A DNA stretch of 29,167 nt from positions 1 to 29,167 of the IMG/VR virus record IMGVR_UViG_3300045256_000311. One strand, given 5' to 3'. A model generated the notes under the pieces. It was not told the origin of the DNA, did no database searches, and saw only the letters and a list, made by a program, of their open reading frames with translations. The translations under genes were made by a program, and so were the position numbers. Positions 3-22,294 of the stretch are shown here, one piece after another. This DNA is from a virus. Every line of letters begins with the position of its first letter. Position 1 is the first letter of the stretch.

Positions 3-578
3 TCTCAGGATTTGGGCCTTCCTCAAACGCGCCGGCGGCACGTGCTCATCGCGTTGCGAGACGGAGAGCCCCCATCGACGATCGCGAGGCCAGCGGTGGA
101 TCAGCCCGCGACTCTTCGGGACTACATCGGCGACCTCGTTGATGAGCCAAGGAGCAGGACCGGTCCCTTCTACGACCCAGGAACGCCGAGCAAGGAGAAC
201 AAGCGGCGTATTGACTACCTGTTCGATAATGGCTTGTTCGACCTTCCCAACTCGCAACGTCCGCCATGCCACCGAGACCGGGCGCACAGCTACGTGTCCA
301 TGTACGGACGGCTCCGATGGGATGCACCCGCCGGGACCATCACTAGCGGGTTCGGGTGCATGGGGCAGGGCCGGTACGTTCACCCCTCGCGGCGGAGAAC
401 GCTCACGCCTCACGAGGCGGCACGGGTACAGGGCTTTCCCGACTTCTACGACTTCTCGGATGTCCGCGGCGTCACAAGCCTGCGAGAGATGATCGGGAAC
501 GCCGTGCCGCCGAGGCTGTCAGCAATCGTCATGGACCAGCTGTTTCACGCCGGTGCTTTCCGATATGCGACGTGCTAA
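3..578 (+). CDS. drmMII: DNA cytosine-5 methyltransferase, C-terminal part (5' end outside window)
   Basis: C-terminal part of a C5-cytosine DNA methyltransferase, which transfers a methyl group from S-adenosylmethionine to cytosine C5 in double-stranded DNA. The frame is open to the left edge, so the gene starts upstream; a TTG at 12 lies inside a conserved motif and is not the start. Visible motifs are LGLPQTRRR (motif VIII, QxRxR), RTLTPHEAARVQGFPDFYDF (motif IX) and IGNAVPP (motif X). The variable stretch between VIII and IX would be the target-recognition domain. Motifs I, IV (PCQ) and VI are not in the window, so catalytic competence cannot be judged. A sigma factor, drmA and drmB follow in the same direction, which supports reading it as the DISARM 5mC methylase (DrmMII). 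The family call is firm; the DISARM role is inferred from context. Confidence 0.88.
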   Translation, partial: SQDLGLPQTRRRHVLIALRDGEPPSTIARPAVDQPATLRDYIGDLVDEPRSRTGPFYDPGTPSKENKRRIDYLFDNGLFDLPNSQRPPCHRDRAHSYVSMYGRLRWDAPAGTITSGFGCMGQGRYVHPSRRRTLTPHEAARVQGFPDFYDFSDVRGVTSLREMIGNAVPPRLSAIVMDQLFHAGAFRYATC

Positions 579-636: not shown

Positions 637-1923
637 ATGGAACATGTGGGGGCCCCGCTTGGTGCGGATGTAGCAGCGGTGCCTGACGTCGCCCGCATCG
701 ACTTCTGCGTTTCCCTGCTCCAAGACGACTTTCACCGTCAGGGCAGAAGTCTGTCGTTGCGTGACGTCCATCGAGTCGTCTCTCGCCTAAAGCTGTCGCC
801 AGAGGCCGCAGCGACCGTTCTGAGTAAGGTCACTGGCCTGCTTGACTCCGAGCAGGAGCCGACCACTGCCGCCGAGCCTGACCAGAGCGACCGGCCGAAG
901 GTCGAAACGCCCACAACGTCACCACGACGTTCCGAGACCGACCTCGTATCTGTTCTCCTCAGCTCCTGCGGCGAGCGAAAGCTGCTGAGCCACGCTGAAG
1001 AGATTGCGCTCGGGCGCAGCTACAGGGTTGGGCGTGTGCTTGCCTCGGCTGCCCAGCAGACACCAGAGTGCCGATCGGCCATTCGCGCAGGCGAAGAGGC
1101 ATTCAACACACTGGTGAAGTGCAACCTTCGGCTGGTTGTCTCAGTGGCGCGAGAGTACCTGAACACCGTTGGGATGGAGCTGGTCGATCTGGTACACGAA
1201 GGCGTGCTTGGGCTCATACGTGCCGTCGAGAAGTACGACCCGGAACTTGGTTTCAGGTTTTCTACCTACGCGACCCACTGGATACACCAGCGGATCACCC
1301 GTGGAATTGCCGATCGGTCTCGACTCATTCGGCTGCCGGTCCACATCGCTCAAAATCTTAGTCTCCTGAGACGGAAGCGTCGGCGACTTGCGGAGGAGTC
1401 GGGACGGCAACCGTCGCCTAACGATCTGGCTCAGGATATGGGCCTCTCTCTATCTCACGTGCTGCTGCTCCTCACACTTGAGCGCGATGTCACGTCCTTC
1501 GACCAGTGGGAGCACAGCGAGGAGCGCAGCGGTGTCACACTACTGCCGGACCCTTCAACCCCGGACCCGTACGTCCAAGCCGAAAGAGCTGACGAGCAGA
1601 TGCGACTGCTTCGCGCCGTCAATCAACTCGACTCCCGGATGAAGGAGATCATCATCCGTCGCTACGGACTCGCCGACATGCCAGAGGAGACCCTTGAGCA
1701 GGTTGGGCAGCGATTCGGCATCACCCGCGAACGGATTCGCCAAATTGAGAAGGCGGCGATTGAGAGGCTCACTCGCCTGTTACAACGGAAGAGCAGCGAT
1801 GGGAACCAACCCGACAGTGCCAGTGGATCATCTAGAGGAAGCTTGTGCGAAGATGGTGACGTGGCTCACAAGCCGCGTCGTCGCCGATGGAAGAGGAGAC
1901 GTCGACGTACGCTCGGCTTATGA
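637..1923 (+). CDS. Sigma-70 family RNA polymerase sigma factor embedded in the DISARM operon
   Basis: 428-residue sigma factor of the primary/group 2 type, not an ECF factor. A possible region 1.1-like segment covers about residues 22-70, followed by a polar linker and region 1.2 (about 101-133). Region 2 (about 155-232) contains NLRLVVSVAREY, DLVHEGVLGLIRAVEKYDP and FRFSTYATHWIHQRITR. Region 3 covers about 235-315 and region 4 about 322-384, with the -35-binding helix GITRERIRQIEKAAIERL. The start is fixed by GGGAGGG seven bases before ATG 637. It lies 58 bases after the methyltransferase stop and overlaps the helicase gene, so it sits inside the operon. The last ~40 residues are Ser/Asp then Arg-rich and are encoded entirely in the overlap with drmA. 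Against E. coli sigma-70 ATWWIRQAITR, the first Trp is His here. It is probably functional, possibly dedicated to this locus; the target promoters are unknown. Confidence 0.93.
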   Translation: MEHVGAPLGADVAAVPDVARIDFCVSLLQDDFHRQGRSLSLRDVHRVVSRLKLSPEAAATVLSKVTGLLDSEQEPTTAAEPDQSDRPKVETPTTSPRRSETDLVSVLLSSCGERKLLSHAEEIALGRSYRVGRVLASAAQQTPECRSAIRAGEEAFNTLVKCNLRLVVSVAREYLNTVGMELVDLVHEGVLGLIRAVEKYDPELGFRFSTYATHWIHQRITRGIADRSRLIRLPVHIAQNLSLLRRKRRRLAEESGRQPSPNDLAQDMGLSLSHVLLLLTLERDVTSFDQWEHSEERSGVTLLPDPSTPDPYVQAERADEQMRLLRAVNQLDSRMKEIIIRRYGLADMPEETLEQVGQRFGITRERIRQIEKAAIERLTRLLQRKSSDGNQPDSASGSSRGSLCEDGDVAHKPRRRRWKRRRRRTLGL

Positions 1924-4852
1924 CCCAGTGGGCCGGTACTGGTTAGGTCGACTGTCGCCCGAGGATGTCGTTGTGTCCAACGCTGCGACACACGGTGACC
2001 GGTCCGAACGAATGGAGCCCTGCGCGATAGGGCTGCGTGCCCGGTTCGCGCGATCGACCCCTCTTGGCGTCACCGCCAGCTGCTGCGTCTGGCAGCGCTC
2101 GACAGCAGGCTGGACAAAGGGTCCACGTCGTTCGCAGACGTTGCATTTGACGCTACCAACGGCAGCCGGCACAGAGTCGCATGTGTTTCGTGCGCTGTCG
2201 GATGACTTGAGCAACGACTCCGGCGGGCAAGCGACGCTCGTCCGCCTCGACGTAGAGCTTGAGCAGTCGGCGGAGGGTCACGAGGAGTTCACCCTTCAGC
2301 TAGTGAACGCATCTCCGTCCCCCGGCTCGAATCGCTTCGGTCCGGTTCTGTTCGAAGTTGAACTGTGCGTAAACGGGCTGCCCCATGCGCCAATGCTCCT
2401 CGAAGCGCTGCCCGACTCGTTCAGGTATGACCGTCGTGTTATGGCGTACGGGATCAACTGTGGGATAGAGGTAACCGGCGACTCGATAGTCACCCGAGAC
2501 GTTGTACAAGTGGACCGGCAACGACCGAGCTTCTGGACTGCGCCGTCAGACGAGCCCGACCTCTCCTTCAACACCTTGTCGACTGAACCAACCTCGCCCT
2601 TGTCGGCCCTCGTTGCCAACCACCGAGCGTGGGGAGACGCACACTGGTCGGCCAACTCGCTTGCCGCTCGGGCAGCGCAATACGGGTGGACGGACGAGAT
2701 GAAAGCCGAAGCTGCCGAAGAGGCACAACAGTTTCATGGCGAGGCCGAGCGGCTGCAGGCTGGCCTCCAGCACCTCGTTCACGACAGCCGGCTGCTCCGC
2801 GCGTTCACCCTTATGAACGCAGCCATGGAGGTATCAGCTCGCGGGCGTTACAGCGGCTGGCGGCCCTTCCAGATCGGGTTCATATTGTCGAACTTAGCGG
2901 ACTGCGATCCCGCGTCACGCTCAGCAGACACCACCGACATCCTTTGGTTTGCGACTGGCGGTGGGAAGACCGAAACCTACCTCGGGCTGCTGCTCATTGC
3001 CGCCTTCTTCGACCGCTTACGAGGGAAGGTTGATGGCGTCACGGCATGGAGCAGGTTTCCTCTGCGCCTACTCTCGCTGCAGCAAACGCAGCGCTTCGCC
3101 GACGCGATCGCGGCAGCGGAGATCGTGCGACGACGCGAAGGTGTTGACGGCGAGCCCTTTAGCCTTGGGTTCCTAGTCGGAGATAGCTCCACGCCAAACC
3201 GGATCGCCAATGAGCCTGCACCCGGAGACCCGGACCCCCTCGACCCGGAAATGCCAGGGCGGTTCCAGATACTCCGCCGGTGTCCGTTCTGCCGTGCGGA
3301 TGTGCGAATGGCCTTCGATCGGCGAAGCTGGACGCTCCAGCACCAGTGTACGGGCGAGCGTTGTCCGTGGCCGGAAAAAGGCCTGCCATTCTACGTTGTC
3401 GACGAAGAGATCTACAGATTCCTTCCGACACTTGTCGTTGGCACCCTGGACAAAGTGGCGCTGGTGTCATGGCAAGCCAGTGTCCGCGGAATGTTTGCGC
3501 CGCCCTATGGCAAATGCTCCGAACCGTTGCACGGTTATACCTATGCCCCGCGATCGCAGCGCCCCAACGGCTGCCTGGTTCCCGGTTGCCGCGGTACAAG
3601 AAGTTCGCTGCCAATGGCAGGCGAACTCTATGCACCGTCCTTTCGCCTTCAAGACGAACTGCACCTATTGCGCGACAGTCTTGGAGCGATCAACGCGCAC
3701 TACGAAAGCCTGCTCGACCATCTGCAGTCATCCAGTACAGATACTCACGCGAAGATCGTCGGCTCTTCGGCTACGCTCAGCGGCTTTGAACGGCAGTGCG
3801 ACCAAATCTACCGGCGTCACGGCAGGGTGTTTCCACTTCAAGGCCCTTCCATCCACGAATCGCTATGGTCAGGGACATCGACCTCACTCCTGCGGCGGTT
3901 CATCGCTCTCGCTCCTCGGGGTGTGACGCTGGAGTTTGCTGCAGACAGAATGCTCACGAGCCTGCAATCGGCGATACGCGAGCTTGTCGCGGACCCGGTT
4001 CAAGTCTGTACGTCAGCGGGCATCCCGACCGCGATGGCCGCGGAGCTTGTCTCCTTGTACGGGACAGACGTCGTCTATGGCAATACCATTCGCGATCTTG
4101 ATGCGAGCCTCCGATCACTAGAGACACAGGTGCCGGTCGGGAAGCTTATCACGGCTCAGTTGACCGGTCAGACGCTCTTTTCAGAAGTCAGCAAGACACT
4201 TGAGCGACTTGAGCGTCCCGAGCCTGATTTTCAAGATCGCGTCCATGTAGTTGCGGCGTCTGCAATGATGTCGCACGGCGTAGACATTGATCGCCTCAAC
4301 GTCATGGTCATGCTGGGTCTTCCACTTGCGACTGCGGAGTTCATCCAGACTACTGCCCGAATCGGCCGGAAGCATCCGGGCCTCGTATTCGTGCTTCACA
4401 AGATGGCCCTCGAACGTGACGCAAGCGTCTACAGGTCGTTTCGGCACTTTGTGGAGCAAGGCGACCGCTTCGTTGACCCAGTTCCCGTTAGCAGGCGGAG
4501 TCAAAGGGTACTAGAACGGACTCTCTGCGGCCTGGTGCAGGCTCGGCTGTTACACATTCACGAGACGCGTGCGGGAAAGCCTCTCACTACCGTGCGCGCA
4601 CTGCGCGAGTACCAGAAAGCCGGCGCTCTGACGGAACTGGACGAACTGACAGAGTTGAAGAGCATTCTTGGGCTGGACTCTGATTTAGACTCAGGTGCCG
4701 TAGAGTACTTGCGCGAATGGCTCCACGACTTCTTCCGCAATCTGAACAATCCCGATCCCTCGGCAAAGTTCCCTTCTGATCTGTCTCCGACCGGCAAGCC
4801 AATGACATCGCTCCGCGACGTAGAGGAGCAGGCACCGATCCATGACGCCTGA
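1799..4852 (+). CDS. drmA: DISARM helicase DrmA
   Basis: Large SF2 helicase-like ATPase, 1017 residues from ATG 1799. Motif I ATGGGKT is at about residues 385-391, a DELH box at 619-622, SAT at 657-659, SHGVDIDRLN (motif V) at 825-834 and QTTARIGR (motif VI) at 850-857. A cysteine cluster (about C495, C498, C517, C522, C573, C592, C597) inserted between motif I and the DELH box looks zinc-binding. The N-terminus has YDPVGRYWLGRLSPE, resembling the (R)Y-L-G-L-P segment of DrmA proteins. In DISARM, DrmA and DrmB form the core complex that recognises incoming DNA. The frame is open upstream to 1694, but ATG 1799 is preferred because it has a GAAG-type ribosome site and leaves sigma region 4 intact; ATG 1856 is an alternative. 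The overlap with the sigma gene is 125 bases. drmB begins 15 bases downstream. Confidence 0.9.
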   Translation: MGTNPTVPVDHLEEACAKMVTWLTSRVVADGRGDVDVRSAYDPVGRYWLGRLSPEDVVVSNAATHGDRSERMEPCAIGLRARFARSTPLGVTASCCVWQRSTAGWTKGPRRSQTLHLTLPTAAGTESHVFRALSDDLSNDSGGQATLVRLDVELEQSAEGHEEFTLQLVNASPSPGSNRFGPVLFEVELCVNGLPHAPMLLEALPDSFRYDRRVMAYGINCGIEVTGDSIVTRDVVQVDRQRPSFWTAPSDEPDLSFNTLSTEPTSPLSALVANHRAWGDAHWSANSLAARAAQYGWTDEMKAEAAEEAQQFHGEAERLQAGLQHLVHDSRLLRAFTLMNAAMEVSARGRYSGWRPFQIGFILSNLADCDPASRSADTTDILWFATGGGKTETYLGLLLIAAFFDRLRGKVDGVTAWSRFPLRLLSLQQTQRFADAIAAAEIVRRREGVDGEPFSLGFLVGDSSTPNRIANEPAPGDPDPLDPEMPGRFQILRRCPFCRADVRMAFDRRSWTLQHQCTGERCPWPEKGLPFYVVDEEIYRFLPTLVVGTLDKVALVSWQASVRGMFAPPYGKCSEPLHGYTYAPRSQRPNGCLVPGCRGTRSSLPMAGELYAPSFRLQDELHLLRDSLGAINAHYESLLDHLQSSSTDTHAKIVGSSATLSGFERQCDQIYRRHGRVFPLQGPSIHESLWSGTSTSLLRRFIALAPRGVTLEFAADRMLTSLQSAIRELVADPVQVCTSAGIPTAMAAELVSLYGTDVVYGNTIRDLDASLRSLETQVPVGKLITAQLTGQTLFSEVSKTLERLERPEPDFQDRVHVVAASAMMSHGVDIDRLNVMVMLGLPLATAEFIQTTARIGRKHPGLVFVLHKMALERDASVYRSFRHFVEQGDRFVDPVPVSRRSQRVLERTLCGLVQARLLHIHETRAGKPLTTVRALREYQKAGALTELDELTELKSILGLDSDLDSGAVEYLREWLHDFFRNLNNPDPSAKFPSDLSPTGKPMTSLRDVEEQAPIHDA

Positions 4853-4867
4853 GCCACGGACGAACCC

Positions 4868-6613
4868 ATGAGAGAGTACCGTAGCGCCTCGCAGATCCTA
4901 TTCGGCGTGCTTCCGGAGCAGACAGTTGACCTCCGCGGCCGAGTCTGGAAGGTTAGCAGGTGGCAGAGCACCAACCCTGTTCGCATCGACGAGGCGGTGC
5001 TCAGGCGAGAACTGATTCGCCAAGCCTCCCGCTGGGCTGCCGCCGGACAGGATGGAGGATACGTACATGACCTGAATACCGGCTGGGGAGTTGAGCTCCG
5101 ATCGCTCAATCGTCAGGCTGGGGTAGTGGTCGAACGGTTTCCGAGGGTCTCACTGTGCAACGGCTGCAAGCGTCTCGCCGAAACGGACGATGGGCAGTGC
5201 CGCTGCGGTACTCGCGACTGGCGACAGCTACACTTTGTTGCTTACCACGAATGCGGCAGACTGAAGGAGCCGTTCATTCCCAAGTGCCCACAGCATGGTC
5301 AAGCTAGGATCGTATTCCCCGGCACCTCGTCGGCGGCTGAGATCACAATCGTCTGCCCAGTCTGCAACCGTGTTCTGCAACGCGGGTTGGGCCGGCCGAA
5401 ATGTGACTGTGGAAGCGGGCAGATGGTGTTTACCGTCCACCGTGCCGCATCGGTGTACACGCCAAGAACCGTCGTAATAGTCAACCCGCCTCGACCAGAT
5501 CGGCTGAGGCAGCTCCGATCAGCTGGCGGCACGGCCAGGGCAGTAGAGTGGGTGCTCGATGGAATGACGACCCGGAGCTTTGCCGACGTGCCCTCAAGTT
5601 CGGCATCGCTACTAGCGCAACTGCTCGACACCGGAATGAGTCGTGAGTTCGCAGAGAGTACTGTTCGAGCGGCCGTTGCTGCCGGTGAGGTTCAAGACGC
5701 CGGGGGCGGCTCGCGGGCGACAGCACTCTCGACGGATGCGGAACATGAGGCCGTATCGATTGCGACCGCGCTCGCCGAGTCTAGGGTAAGAACTAGCGAC
5801 TTGGCCTCAGCCGCGCAAGCGGGAACCAAGCGCCGCCGCCTGTACACCGTAGACTATCCCGCCGCGTTGGAGGCAGCGGGGATCGAGGCCATCGAGTTGG
5901 TGGAGCGATTCCCAATCATGACGGGGGTTTACGGCTACACTCGAGGCAAGCCAAATCCCGGCCAGTCTCGCTTGGTACCATTCAAGCCGCGGTCGGGTCG
6001 GACTTACACGGTGTATGGCGACGTTGCCGAAACGGAAGCCCTGTTCATCCGCCTTGCACCAATGGCAGTCGCCGATTGGCTTAGGCTCCGAGGCTTTGCT
6101 CTGCCAGCCTGGACCGACTCTCGCACTGCTCGGCTCGCGATCGCAAGCTCTGTACAGATTGCAGCCCCGGGCGAAGACCCGCCGGCCGCTCCGTCGCCGG
6201 GAAGCACGCTCCTGACGCTGGTGCATTCGGTGGCACACCGGCTTATCCGGCGGGCATCAGTGCTCGCAGGAATCGATCGCAACGCGCTATCTGAGTACCT
6301 CGTCCCGTGGCATCTTGGCTTCTTTGTCTTTGCGGCAGCGAGGGGAAGCTTCGTCCTTGGCGGGCTGCAGGCGCTGTTTGAAACAGAACTGCATACACTC
6401 TTGCGATCCTTAGTTCACGCGGAGCACCGTTGCGCTCTGGACCCGGGCTGTTCGCGCGCGGGTGCCTCGTGCGCCGCCTGTCTGCATCTCGGCGAACCGT
6501 CATGCCGGTGGTTCAACCGGTTCTTGGATCGTGGGGTGTTGCACGGTGATTCCGGCTATTTCCGCACTGCCGGGCGCGTAGGCGGTTTGCCGCAAGCAGC
6601 AGGGCCATCCTAG
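4868..6613 (+). CDS. drmB: DISARM protein DrmB (DUF1998 domain)
   Basis: 581 residues. The N-terminal half has three zinc-type clusters: C97-x2-C100 with C111-x-C113; H127/C129 with C140/H143; and C163-x2-C166 with C179-x-C181. The C-terminal third carries the DUF1998 signature: HSVAHRLIRRASVLAGI, then CALDPGCS, CAACLHLGEPSCRWFNR and LDRGVLHG. DUF1998 next to a DrmA-type helicase is the defining pair of DISARM; DrmB works with DrmA in a complex on DNA. The gene starts 15 bases after drmA at ATG 4868, with only a weak ribosome site, so translational coupling is likely. After its stop there is a small gap rather than a phospholipase-D gene, so drmC is missing at the place where it might be expected. 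The length is normal for the family and no frame damage is visible. Confidence 0.9.
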   Translation: MREYRSASQILFGVLPEQTVDLRGRVWKVSRWQSTNPVRIDEAVLRRELIRQASRWAAAGQDGGYVHDLNTGWGVELRSLNRQAGVVVERFPRVSLCNGCKRLAETDDGQCRCGTRDWRQLHFVAYHECGRLKEPFIPKCPQHGQARIVFPGTSSAAEITIVCPVCNRVLQRGLGRPKCDCGSGQMVFTVHRAASVYTPRTVVIVNPPRPDRLRQLRSAGGTARAVEWVLDGMTTRSFADVPSSSASLLAQLLDTGMSREFAESTVRAAVAAGEVQDAGGGSRATALSTDAEHEAVSIATALAESRVRTSDLASAAQAGTKRRRLYTVDYPAALEAAGIEAIELVERFPIMTGVYGYTRGKPNPGQSRLVPFKPRSGRTYTVYGDVAETEALFIRLAPMAVADWLRLRGFALPAWTDSRTARLAIASSVQIAAPGEDPPAAPSPGSTLLTLVHSVAHRLIRRASVLAGIDRNALSEYLVPWHLGFFVFAAARGSFVLGGLQALFETELHTLLRSLVHAEHRCALDPGCSRAGASCAACLHLGEPSCRWFNRFLDRGVLHGDSGYFRTAGRVGGLPQAAGPS

Positions 6614-20787: not shown

Positions 20788-21654
20788 TTACTCCGCCTGG
20801 CATTCTGCGCCTCGCTTTCGGTCGATCGTGACCAACTCCATGCCGAAGTTGTCGACACCCTCCGGCACGATCAGCCCCGGCCGCGGCAGCAGCTTGTTGT
20901 CCTTGAAAGGCCGGTAATCCACATGGTGTTGCCACCTGCCCCACTTGCGCGTCACCTTCACCACGTCCGGATGCTGACGCTGGAGCGATTGGGCCATCAG
21001 CAGGCGGCCGTCGCGGCCGTCGTTGAGCTTGTAGAGCGATTCGGTGTTCCCGCCCTTCATGGTCATCGTCGGCATCTTCTCGCAGAGAAACGCGTTGAAG
21101 AGGATCGTGCACCAGCCGGCCTTCAAAGCGCGCAGGCTGAGGTCGCTGTCCTCGTTGTAGCGCCCTCGCCAACGGAACGGCAGATCGTTCTGAATCAGGA
21201 TCGCGGAGTAGATTCGCGTGTTCGGAGTGAACGGCGGAATCTTCGATTTCCTTGAACAAAACATGAAATAGTTCGGCCCCGCCATCGCGACGTTGAGGTA
21301 ACGATCGCAGAAATCCTCCATCGCGGCGAAGGGTGTTCCGGTCGCCAGCGGAACCTTCAGGTTGTTGTTGAACCGGTAAAACGAGCGCAGGTTATCATCG
21401 AGAACCCAATGCCTCTTGTGCCCCTCCGCGATCGCGCGTTCCCAGACAAAGTTCCTCGCTGGCACGGAGCTTCCGACGTTGCTGAACGGCAGCACGAGCA
21501 GCTTGGCCGGGTCGATCACCGCCGCGTACTGGTCGAACTCTTGAGGTTCGACGGCGACGCGATAGGGCACGCCGATCTTGTCGAGCGCCTTCGCCGTGAG
21601 CCGCGACTCCCATCGCGATTTGCTGACGATGAACACGGGGTACTTATTCAGCAT
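20788..21654 (-). CDS. TET-associated-type DNA glycosyltransferase (TAGT/GREB1-GT-like)
   Basis: 288 residues. Sequence features are YPVFIVSKSRWESRLTAKAL near the start, VPYRVAVEPQEFDQY, a conserved ARNFVWERAIAEGHKRHWVL followed by DDN (WVLDDN at 83-88, a metal/nucleotide-sugar type acidic site), RGRYNEDSDLSLRALKAGW at about 163-181, and TMTMKGGNTESLY. This matches the phage glycosyltransferases called TET-associated glycosyltransferases, predicted to attach sugar to oxidised pyrimidines in phage DNA and related to the GREB1 C-terminal domain. No TET/JBP dioxygenase is in the window, so the acceptor base is unknown. Its start overlaps the ParB-like gene by 11 bases. GC content and reading are somewhat less extreme than in neighbouring genes. 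The family call rests on remembered sequence pattern, with good agreement along the whole protein. Confidence 0.78.
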   Translation of the reverse strand: MLNKYPVFIVSKSRWESRLTAKALDKIGVPYRVAVEPQEFDQYAAVIDPAKLLVLPFSNVGSSVPARNFVWERAIAEGHKRHWVLDDNLRSFYRFNNNLKVPLATGTPFAAMEDFCDRYLNVAMAGPNYFMFCSRKSKIPPFTPNTRIYSAILIQNDLPFRWRGRYNEDSDLSLRALKAGWCTILFNAFLCEKMPTMTMKGGNTESLYKLNDGRDGRLLMAQSLQRQHPDVVKVTRKWGRWQHHVDYRPFKDNKLLPRPGLIVPEGVDNFGMELVTIDRKRGAECQAE

Positions 21655-22294
21655 GGTTGGCGTCCACGAAACGGATGTTTGAGATGTGCCCGATCGGCGC
21701 GGGCGGATACCACAGGCTGCGGGTCTTGTCGGTGATCGTCTGTTGGATCAGGGCGGCGAAGGCGTCGCGATCGGCCGCGGACGCGAAGTTGATCCTGATC
21801 GAATACGCCGCGGTCTGGTCCTCGCTCTCGCACTCCGGCATGCCGGTCCACGTCGTTGCGGGATCGTTCGGGACGCCGGCCCCGCCCGTGGCGGCGAGCA
21901 GTCGGGCGAGCTCATCGGCGGAGTAGCCGGCGGCCTCCGCCAGCGCGGCGTCTTCTGCGCGCAGAGATTCGAGCAGGGCCGCGAGGGCACTATCGTTGAA
22001 CGTGCTGCCGACCTCGGCATCACCGGCCCGGTTGTCGGCGATGGCGTAGGCCGTGGCCTCTGAGCCGCGGAGGTTCGACCTCACTGCATTGATCTCAGTC
22101 CACCCGAGCAGCTGCGCCGCCGCGAGTGTGCCGTTGCCGGCGCGCACGACGTTGGCCGCGTCGATCACGATCGGTTTCTGCTGGCCGAACCGCCGGAGGC
22201 TCGCCGCGATCGCCTGAATGTTCCGGGGGGTGTGAGTGCGTACGTTCGCCGGGTCGGTGACGAGCTTCGCGATTTCGATCGTCTCGATGTGCAT
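21644..22294 (-). CDS. ParB/Srx-fold domain protein, phage type
   Basis: 216 residues from ATG 22294 with an excellent AGGAGG site. The N-terminal ParB-like domain (about 1-95) has IEIAKLVTDPANVRTHTPRN, IAASLRRFGQQKPIVID, VVRAGNGTLAAAQLLGW (the GHG/GER box equivalent) and AYAIADNRAGD. The C-terminal half, with YSIRINFASAADRDAFAALI and SLWYPPAP, is a separate domain. Phage proteins of this type are not chromosome-partition factors; they occur near terminases and DNA-modification genes and may have nuclease or NTPase-related activity. Overlap with the downstream glycosyltransferase suggests joint function, for example in marking or modifying phage DNA. Confidence 0.87.
   Translation of the reverse strand: MHIETIEIAKLVTDPANVRTHTPRNIQAIAASLRRFGQQKPIVIDAANVVRAGNGTLAAAQLLGWTEINAVRSNLRGSEATAYAIADNRAGDAEVGSTFNDSALAALLESLRAEDAALAEAAGYSADELARLLAATGGAGVPNDPATTWTGMPECESEDQTAAYSIRINFASAADRDAFAALIQQTITDKTRSLWYPPAPIGHISNIRFVDANHAE

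Follow-up and report, generated by a model that had tools for sequence, protein, structure and literature searches.

The sigma-70 family factor encoded beside a drmA-like gene in the viral DNA analysed here is, with little room for doubt, a genuine and co-inherited component of the DrmA gene set. Within the clade of DrmA helicases to which the neighbouring protein belongs, a sigma factor of the same group accompanied DrmA in 47 of the 56 loci that could be tested, and the hosts of these loci belong to five phyla (Planctomycetota, Acidobacteriota, Myxococcota, Pseudomonadota and Actinomycetota).

Gene order in the window

The window, by which we mean the whole stretch of DNA that was analysed, is the IMG/VR virus record IMGVR_UViG_3300045256_000311, of 29,167 nucleotides (Table 1). 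Open reading frames, Pfam and PADLOC all bear out the preliminary description of a sigma-70 gene placed between a 5mC methyltransferase and drmA. The best PADLOC model for the truncated methyltransferase was DruM2/MTase_II, DrmMII scoring lower. The sequence GGGAGGG stands 5' of the sigma start codon, and the 3' end of the sigma reading frame overlaps the beginning of drmA by 125 bp. The phage genes come after the DrmB-like gene, drmC (coding for a PLD protein), drmD and drmE being absent from the window. From about 7.6 kb on, the window is that of a tailed phage with genes running mostly leftward, among them those for tape measure, head, protease, portal, terminase and a DnaC-like loader; a search of the window for tRNA genes found none. 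The defence genes may be cargo of the phage or host sequence lying beside a prophage. Close to the terminase gene there are also a ParB-like protein and a match to PHROG 842 (beta-glucosyl-HMC-alpha-glucosyltransferase), and the latter match indicates that the phage may glucosylate its own DNA.

Table 1. Features of the window, with the evidence for each
Feature	Position	Strand	Evidence
DNA cytosine-5 methyltransferase, C-terminal half	3..578	+	Pfam DNA_methylase 63.9 bits; truncated by contig start
Sigma-70 family factor, DrmA-linked clade, 428 aa, ATG start	637..1923	+	Pfam, tree, residue table, AlphaFold model
Sigma N-terminal helical domain, aa ~21-68	697..840	+	Alignment; HHalign; pLDDT ~95
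DrmA-like YprA-family helicase, ATG at 1799	1799..4852	+	PADLOC DrmA, E 9e-99
DrmB-like protein	4868..6613	+	PADLOC DrmB, E 1e-35
Glucosyltransferase-like match	20788..21654		PHROG 842
ParB-like protein	21644..22294		

Linkage of the sigma factor with DrmA

The preliminary description had proposed that genomes be searched for adjacency of this sigma clade to drmA, and the outcome was clear. We assembled 59 loci, namely 54 from a scan with the DrmA alignment (one genome per species), two viral contigs, the window and two plasmids, and scored all of them with sigma profiles; three (L043, L062 and L064) are cut by contig ends, which leaves the 56 testable ones. In 41 of the 47 sigma-bearing loci the sigma gene lies directly 5' of drmA, while the remaining six show drmA and drmB followed by a NERD gene, with the sigma on the opposite strand. 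About 0.4 occurrences would be expected by chance, as estimated from the density of sigma genes in the hosts, against the 47 observed among 56. A control made of more distant DrmAs (20 loci from an even draw of Actinomycetota and three plasmid loci, one locus being common to both sets) yielded a sigma in only two of its 23 loci. The start codon of drmA falls at the sigma stop codon in most loci, often three nucleotides before its last base, and this arrangement suggests that the two genes are translationally coupled. A dcm gene is present in the loci of most relatives.

The best plasmid match to the window sigma came from a Roseomonas plasmid with the order sigma, DrmA, DrmB and dcm and a divergent vsr, whose DrmA and DrmB share about 51-52% identity with their counterparts in the window (DrmB 51%). 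The second plasmid, from Burkholderia, carries dcm, DrmA and DrmB with a NERD helicase and has its sigma on the opposite strand; drmA is split there into several frames and drmB is interrupted by an IS3 element (L005:11938-17978). A search of viral contigs with the window sigma alone gave no match, and neither did a search of the INPHARED phages with the window DrmA.

Nine testable loci lack the sigma. Eight of them (L044 and L047-L053) form one nested branch of the DrmA clade, and the ninth, L058, has lost the gene. The nested branch carries canonical drmC and sometimes drmE, in the order dcm, (drmE), drmA, drmB, drmC, so that drmE occupies the slot of the sigma in several of its loci. Both drmC and drmE are confined to this branch, apart from a drmC in L063, and a DrmD-like gene occurs in some Actinomycetota.

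The two sigma-bearing control loci encode unusual proteins. The sigma-like reading frame of L196 (5755-7017, + strand), directly 5' of its distant drmA, has region 2 and is devoid of region 4. That of L201 (2031-5648, - strand) is a protein of 1198 amino acids adjoining a NERD helicase, drmA and drmB, in which an N-terminal sigma-70 part is joined to an HTH and to a long stretch at the C terminus.

A reciprocal test was conducted in 201 Micromonosporaceae genomes. Ten of them gave a sigma match of at least 316 bits, the rest staying at the level of ordinary RpoD (at most about 242 bits), and the same ten genomes hold the closest DrmA matches. Two further genomes (G336 and G423) encode a DrmA that is 52% identical with a sigma directly adjoining it, and in total all 12 close DrmAs had an adjacent sigma; the sigma search alone was blind to these two, hence other divergent members without DrmA may occur in the family.

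Lineage of the linked sigma factors

The sigma tree comprised 110 rows, 47 of them linked sigmas and 63 other sigmas, mostly from the same host genomes, the group-1/2-type sigmas of the hosts having been gathered from 25 of these genomes. A single branch separated all 47 linked sigmas from the others, housekeeping sigmas included, a grouping that the preliminary description had proposed to check with a tree, and the support for this group is moderate (UFBoot 95 and SH-aLRT 70 in the careful analysis, SH-aLRT 69 in the quick one; 94% of bootstrap trees), the row of the window itself being long. Shuffling of the labels on the tree required about 36 changes. The linked sigmas are only distantly related to the RpoD of each host.

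Pairwise distances between sigmas and between DrmAs were strongly correlated (Mantel r 0.913, null sd 0.067), and r dropped to 0.36 when only DrmA pairs differing by more than 45% were compared. In the DrmA tree the clade stands well apart (support 100), and within it the absence of sigma amounts to the one nested loss plus L058, a distribution that fits the presence of the sigma at the base of the clade. We thus did not find what the preliminary description had named as fatal to its proposal: far from there being no second locus, 47 loci carry the linked sigma, and it is not the host's ordinary sigma standing at this place in genomes devoid of DISARM.

Two sigmas from viral contigs without DrmA (L272 and L311) are by score a little nearer to the linked clade than to host sigmas; when added to the sigma tree they have long branches and an uncertain placement near the linked group.

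Architecture and conserved residues of the sigma factor

The preliminary description held that regions 1.2 to 4 are intact in the window sigma. For regions 2, 3 and 4 this stands, as each scores above its Pfam cut-off; for region 1.2 Pfam gives no call in the window protein, and the claim holds there through the AlphaFold model, which contains all helices of the region. In the clade, Pfam identifies region 1.2 in 33 of 44 relatives and regions 2, 3 and 4 in 44, 42 and 44 of 44 members, respectively. The model (mean pLDDT 83, from an alignment of 44 sequences) has as its best PDB matches SigA and SigS in initiation complexes. An N-terminal domain conserved in the clade, and without a Pfam call, is similar to RpoD region 1.1 (92.7 probability in HHalign). 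In several sigmas of Micromonosporaceae and Pseudonocardiaceae (L018, L020, L023, L054 and others) an additional conserved N-terminal stretch (..DELR..LLADFV.RH.LT..DVD.L..) appears to duplicate the region 1.1-like domain.

Examination of the functional residues identified T429, Y430, W434, R451, E585, R586, R588, Q589 and D403 in all 47 linked sigmas, Q406 in 46 and W433 in 45. The residues that read the -10 and -35 elements are conserved to about the extent seen in host sigmas, those of region 4 that read the -35 element being invariant or nearly so. At the core interface D403 and Q406 are retained, and positions L402, L404, E407 and N409 of region 2.2 are relaxed in comparison with host sigmas. 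With regions 2, 3 and 4 in place and the -10, -35 and core residues mostly conserved, the protein belongs with the group 1/2 sigma-70 factors; because these residues are mostly kept, the linked sigma is probably a working one. No distinct regulon is predicted for it, since its promoter-reading residues match those of housekeeping sigmas.

The copy in the window has histidine at two near-invariant sites (Q406H and W433H, E. coli numbering). Conservation is lost over roughly its final 40 residues (about 388-428), a basic tail that runs into drmA; due to this lack of conservation and to the overlap with the drmA start, the functional part of the protein probably ends near position 1800. Taking the two substitutions and the basic tail together, this copy may be diverging.

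Promoter of the operon

Most Micromonosporaceae loci carry a palindrome, GAAC-N4-GTTC (GAAT in one), that stands 24-25 nucleotides 5' of a TTGTCGGAC-N8-TACGAT-like element near the first sigma start codon; these loci are kin, and the occurrences are not independent events. An element of mycobacterial DNA-damage promoters has been published as tTGTCRgtg-8-TannnT (PMC5656591), and PafBC acts through it (PMC6789036). As a positive control, recA in three of these Micromonosporaceae genomes has CTGTCGGAC-N8-TAGCGT upstream. The palindrome fits a LexA-like box, and two such palindromes occur in the lexA region of one Micromonosporaceae genome. The combination of palindrome and element is missing in four family loci examined (L060, L249, L250 and L258), the last of which has 5' of its sigma gene an exact 12/12 match to the mycobacterial RecA-NDp element without the palindrome; no such match turned up in the background scanned at the other loci.

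Judging from these motifs, the sigma-drmA operon of Micromonosporaceae would be read from a host promoter of the DNA-damage type, of the same element class as that of recA. The preliminary description had suggested that a dedicated sigma could switch the operon on upon infection; in Micromonosporaceae, the one lineage whose operon promoter proved legible, the recA-type promoter and the LexA-like box speak otherwise, and the sigma is not obviously the activator of its own operon there. The LexA-like box and RecA-NDp-like element are confined to Micromonosporaceae, a search for LexA boxes of the gamma- and alphaproteobacterial types having given isolated distant matches only. The preliminary description had proposed looking for a promoter motif common to these operons; no dedicated one emerged in the sigma-DrmA clade as a whole, and the host-type promoter was the only target promoter identified for the linked sigma.

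A different conserved block, TACAGT-like, lies about 10 bp 5' of the dcm start (L018, L019, L023, L025, L027, L028, L032, L054 and L057) and is conserved in nearly all of these nine loci. It would suit a leaderless promoter of dcm.

Relation to known defence systems

The preliminary description placed the sigma inside a DISARM operon. PADLOC supports this as far as the DrmA-like and DrmB-like neighbours are concerned; under the curated NCBIfam cut-offs both proteins fall short, DrmA with 372 bits against 950 for DISARM_DrmAS and DrmB with 81.6 bits against 240 for DrmB_fam, and the system is hence DISARM-related and not canonical DISARM. With DISARM of classes 1 and 2 (drmMI/drmMII, drmA, drmB, drmC, drmD/drmE) it shares the gene order of the DrmA-type helicase and DrmB. 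A DNA methyltransferase is present as well, the truncated one of the window being one that may or may not correspond to drmMII. Some actinobacterial members additionally share a DrmD-like SNF2 helicase with an Eco57I-type methyltransferase, and the nested branch without sigma shares drmC and at times drmE. It differs in its dedicated sigma, in the frequent presence of Vsr and a NERD-UvrD helicase, and in the usual absence of drmC and drmE.

The CRISPR-linked Calp system has the ECF-like CalpS, and has in common with the present system that infection is answered through transcription and a sigma of its own; it differs in the type of sigma, in nucleotide signalling and in protease control, partner genes of that kind being absent here. 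A Lon-protease part of Calp has been described (PMC12751052).

The Mza system (mzaABCDE) offers a precedent, as its MzaA is a sigma-70 factor within a defence system (PMC9523054; NCBIfam NF041931), but its partner genes are not those found with the sigma and DrmA. The window sigma scores 239 bits against NF041931, for which the cut-off is 800, and scans of the window with PADLOC and Pfam returned only DrmA, DrmB and phage genes, without the partners mzaB-E. A PADLOC match to MzaA was rejected as a lead to kinship, ordinary RpoD matching better at about 250 bits.

A YprA-family helicase is also common to ARMADA, BRIGADE, TALON, Druantia and Dpd, among which Vsr or NERD nucleases recur according to a survey of the family, whose main text mentions a sigma factor for none of its systems (PMC12458937). 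The open-access article texts searched describe no DISARM variant with a sigma factor. The proposal of an undescribed variant stands within that literature, and the recurrence of the sigma in this clade shows it to be more than a single case; this widespread, sigma-bearing branch of the DISARM family is apparently undescribed so far.

Proposed role of the sigma factor

We give first place, with a probability of about 0.5, to the reading in which a DISARM-related defence system has an ancient sigma factor dedicated to it, and this sigma builds its own holoenzyme on housekeeping-like promoters. The core set of the system comprises sigma, DrmA, DrmB, a 5mC methyltransferase and in most cases Vsr. 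What completes it is a NERD-UvrD helicase, chiefly in Pseudomonadota and Myxococcota, or, in some Actinomycetota, the DrmD-like helicase and Eco57I-type methyltransferase. Infection or DNA damage would turn the operon on, so that sigma and DrmA would be produced together. The sigma would then form its holoenzyme at housekeeping-like promoters, and through this holoenzyme the defence genes, and maybe other genes too, could go on being transcribed or be transcribed more strongly at a time when the host sigma or the transcription programme of the host is under phage attack. What the computation shows is co-inheritance with DrmA, adjacency and an intact sigma architecture; binding to polymerase, the targets of the sigma and any contact with DrmA and DrmB are inferred. 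Several findings count against a dedicated holoenzyme: the host-type promoter as the sole target promoter identified, promoter-reading residues that match those of housekeeping sigmas, the relaxed core-binding positions of region 2.2, the two substitutions of the window copy, the moderate basal support and the uncertain placement of L272 and L311 near the group.

A tentative second reading makes the sigma a targeting subunit. Alone or bound to RNA polymerase, it would mark promoters or open complexes on unmethylated phage DNA and recruit the co-produced DrmA and DrmB, being the recognition part of the system and not mainly a regulator of transcription. Consistent with such a role, the sigma is kept with DrmA and DrmB whatever the accessory genes, drmA begins at its stop codon, and it is gone in the branch with canonical drmC, where drmE can take its slot; the sigma of L196 without region 4 and the fusion in L201 are moreover hard to read as ordinary initiation factors. 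However, the near-invariance of the -35-reading residues in the 47 linked sigmas fits full promoter use, and a contact of the sigma with DrmA or DrmB is purely hypothetical. Somewhat more doubtful is the related idea that promoters on invading DNA devoid of methylation would be located by the sigma, alone or within its holoenzyme, and passed on to DrmA and DrmB, so that being transcribed and unmethylated would signify foreign.

It is rather unlikely that the protein is a backup resistant to anti-sigma factors, or a guard, replacing or sensing the host sigma once a phage has inactivated it. The group-1-like layout with its region 1.1-like domain, the housekeeping-like promoter residues and the distance from host RpoD would agree with that function, but the sequence gives no hint of a phage anti-sigma, and neither an anti-sigma nor a sensor gene is conserved beside the linked sigma. 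Finally, an ordinary host or phage sigma lying beside drmA by chance in the window contig, a thought invited by how common sigma genes are and by phage contigs that bear sigmas without DrmA, can be set aside given the recurrent linkage across phyla, the separate sigma group and the reciprocity in Micromonosporaceae.

DISARM is a widespread, restriction-like defence, and little is understood so far of what triggers it and of its specificity. Co-inheritance with DrmA in at least five phyla suggests that the sigma is a working component of the defence and not a stray host gene. The sigma also provides defence finders with a marker gene. In one actinobacterial family the results suggest a defence placed under DNA-damage control. 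With a large sister group in which different phyla have retained a sigma factor together with DrmA, the idea that transcription initiation and DNA restriction are connected can be put to a direct test.
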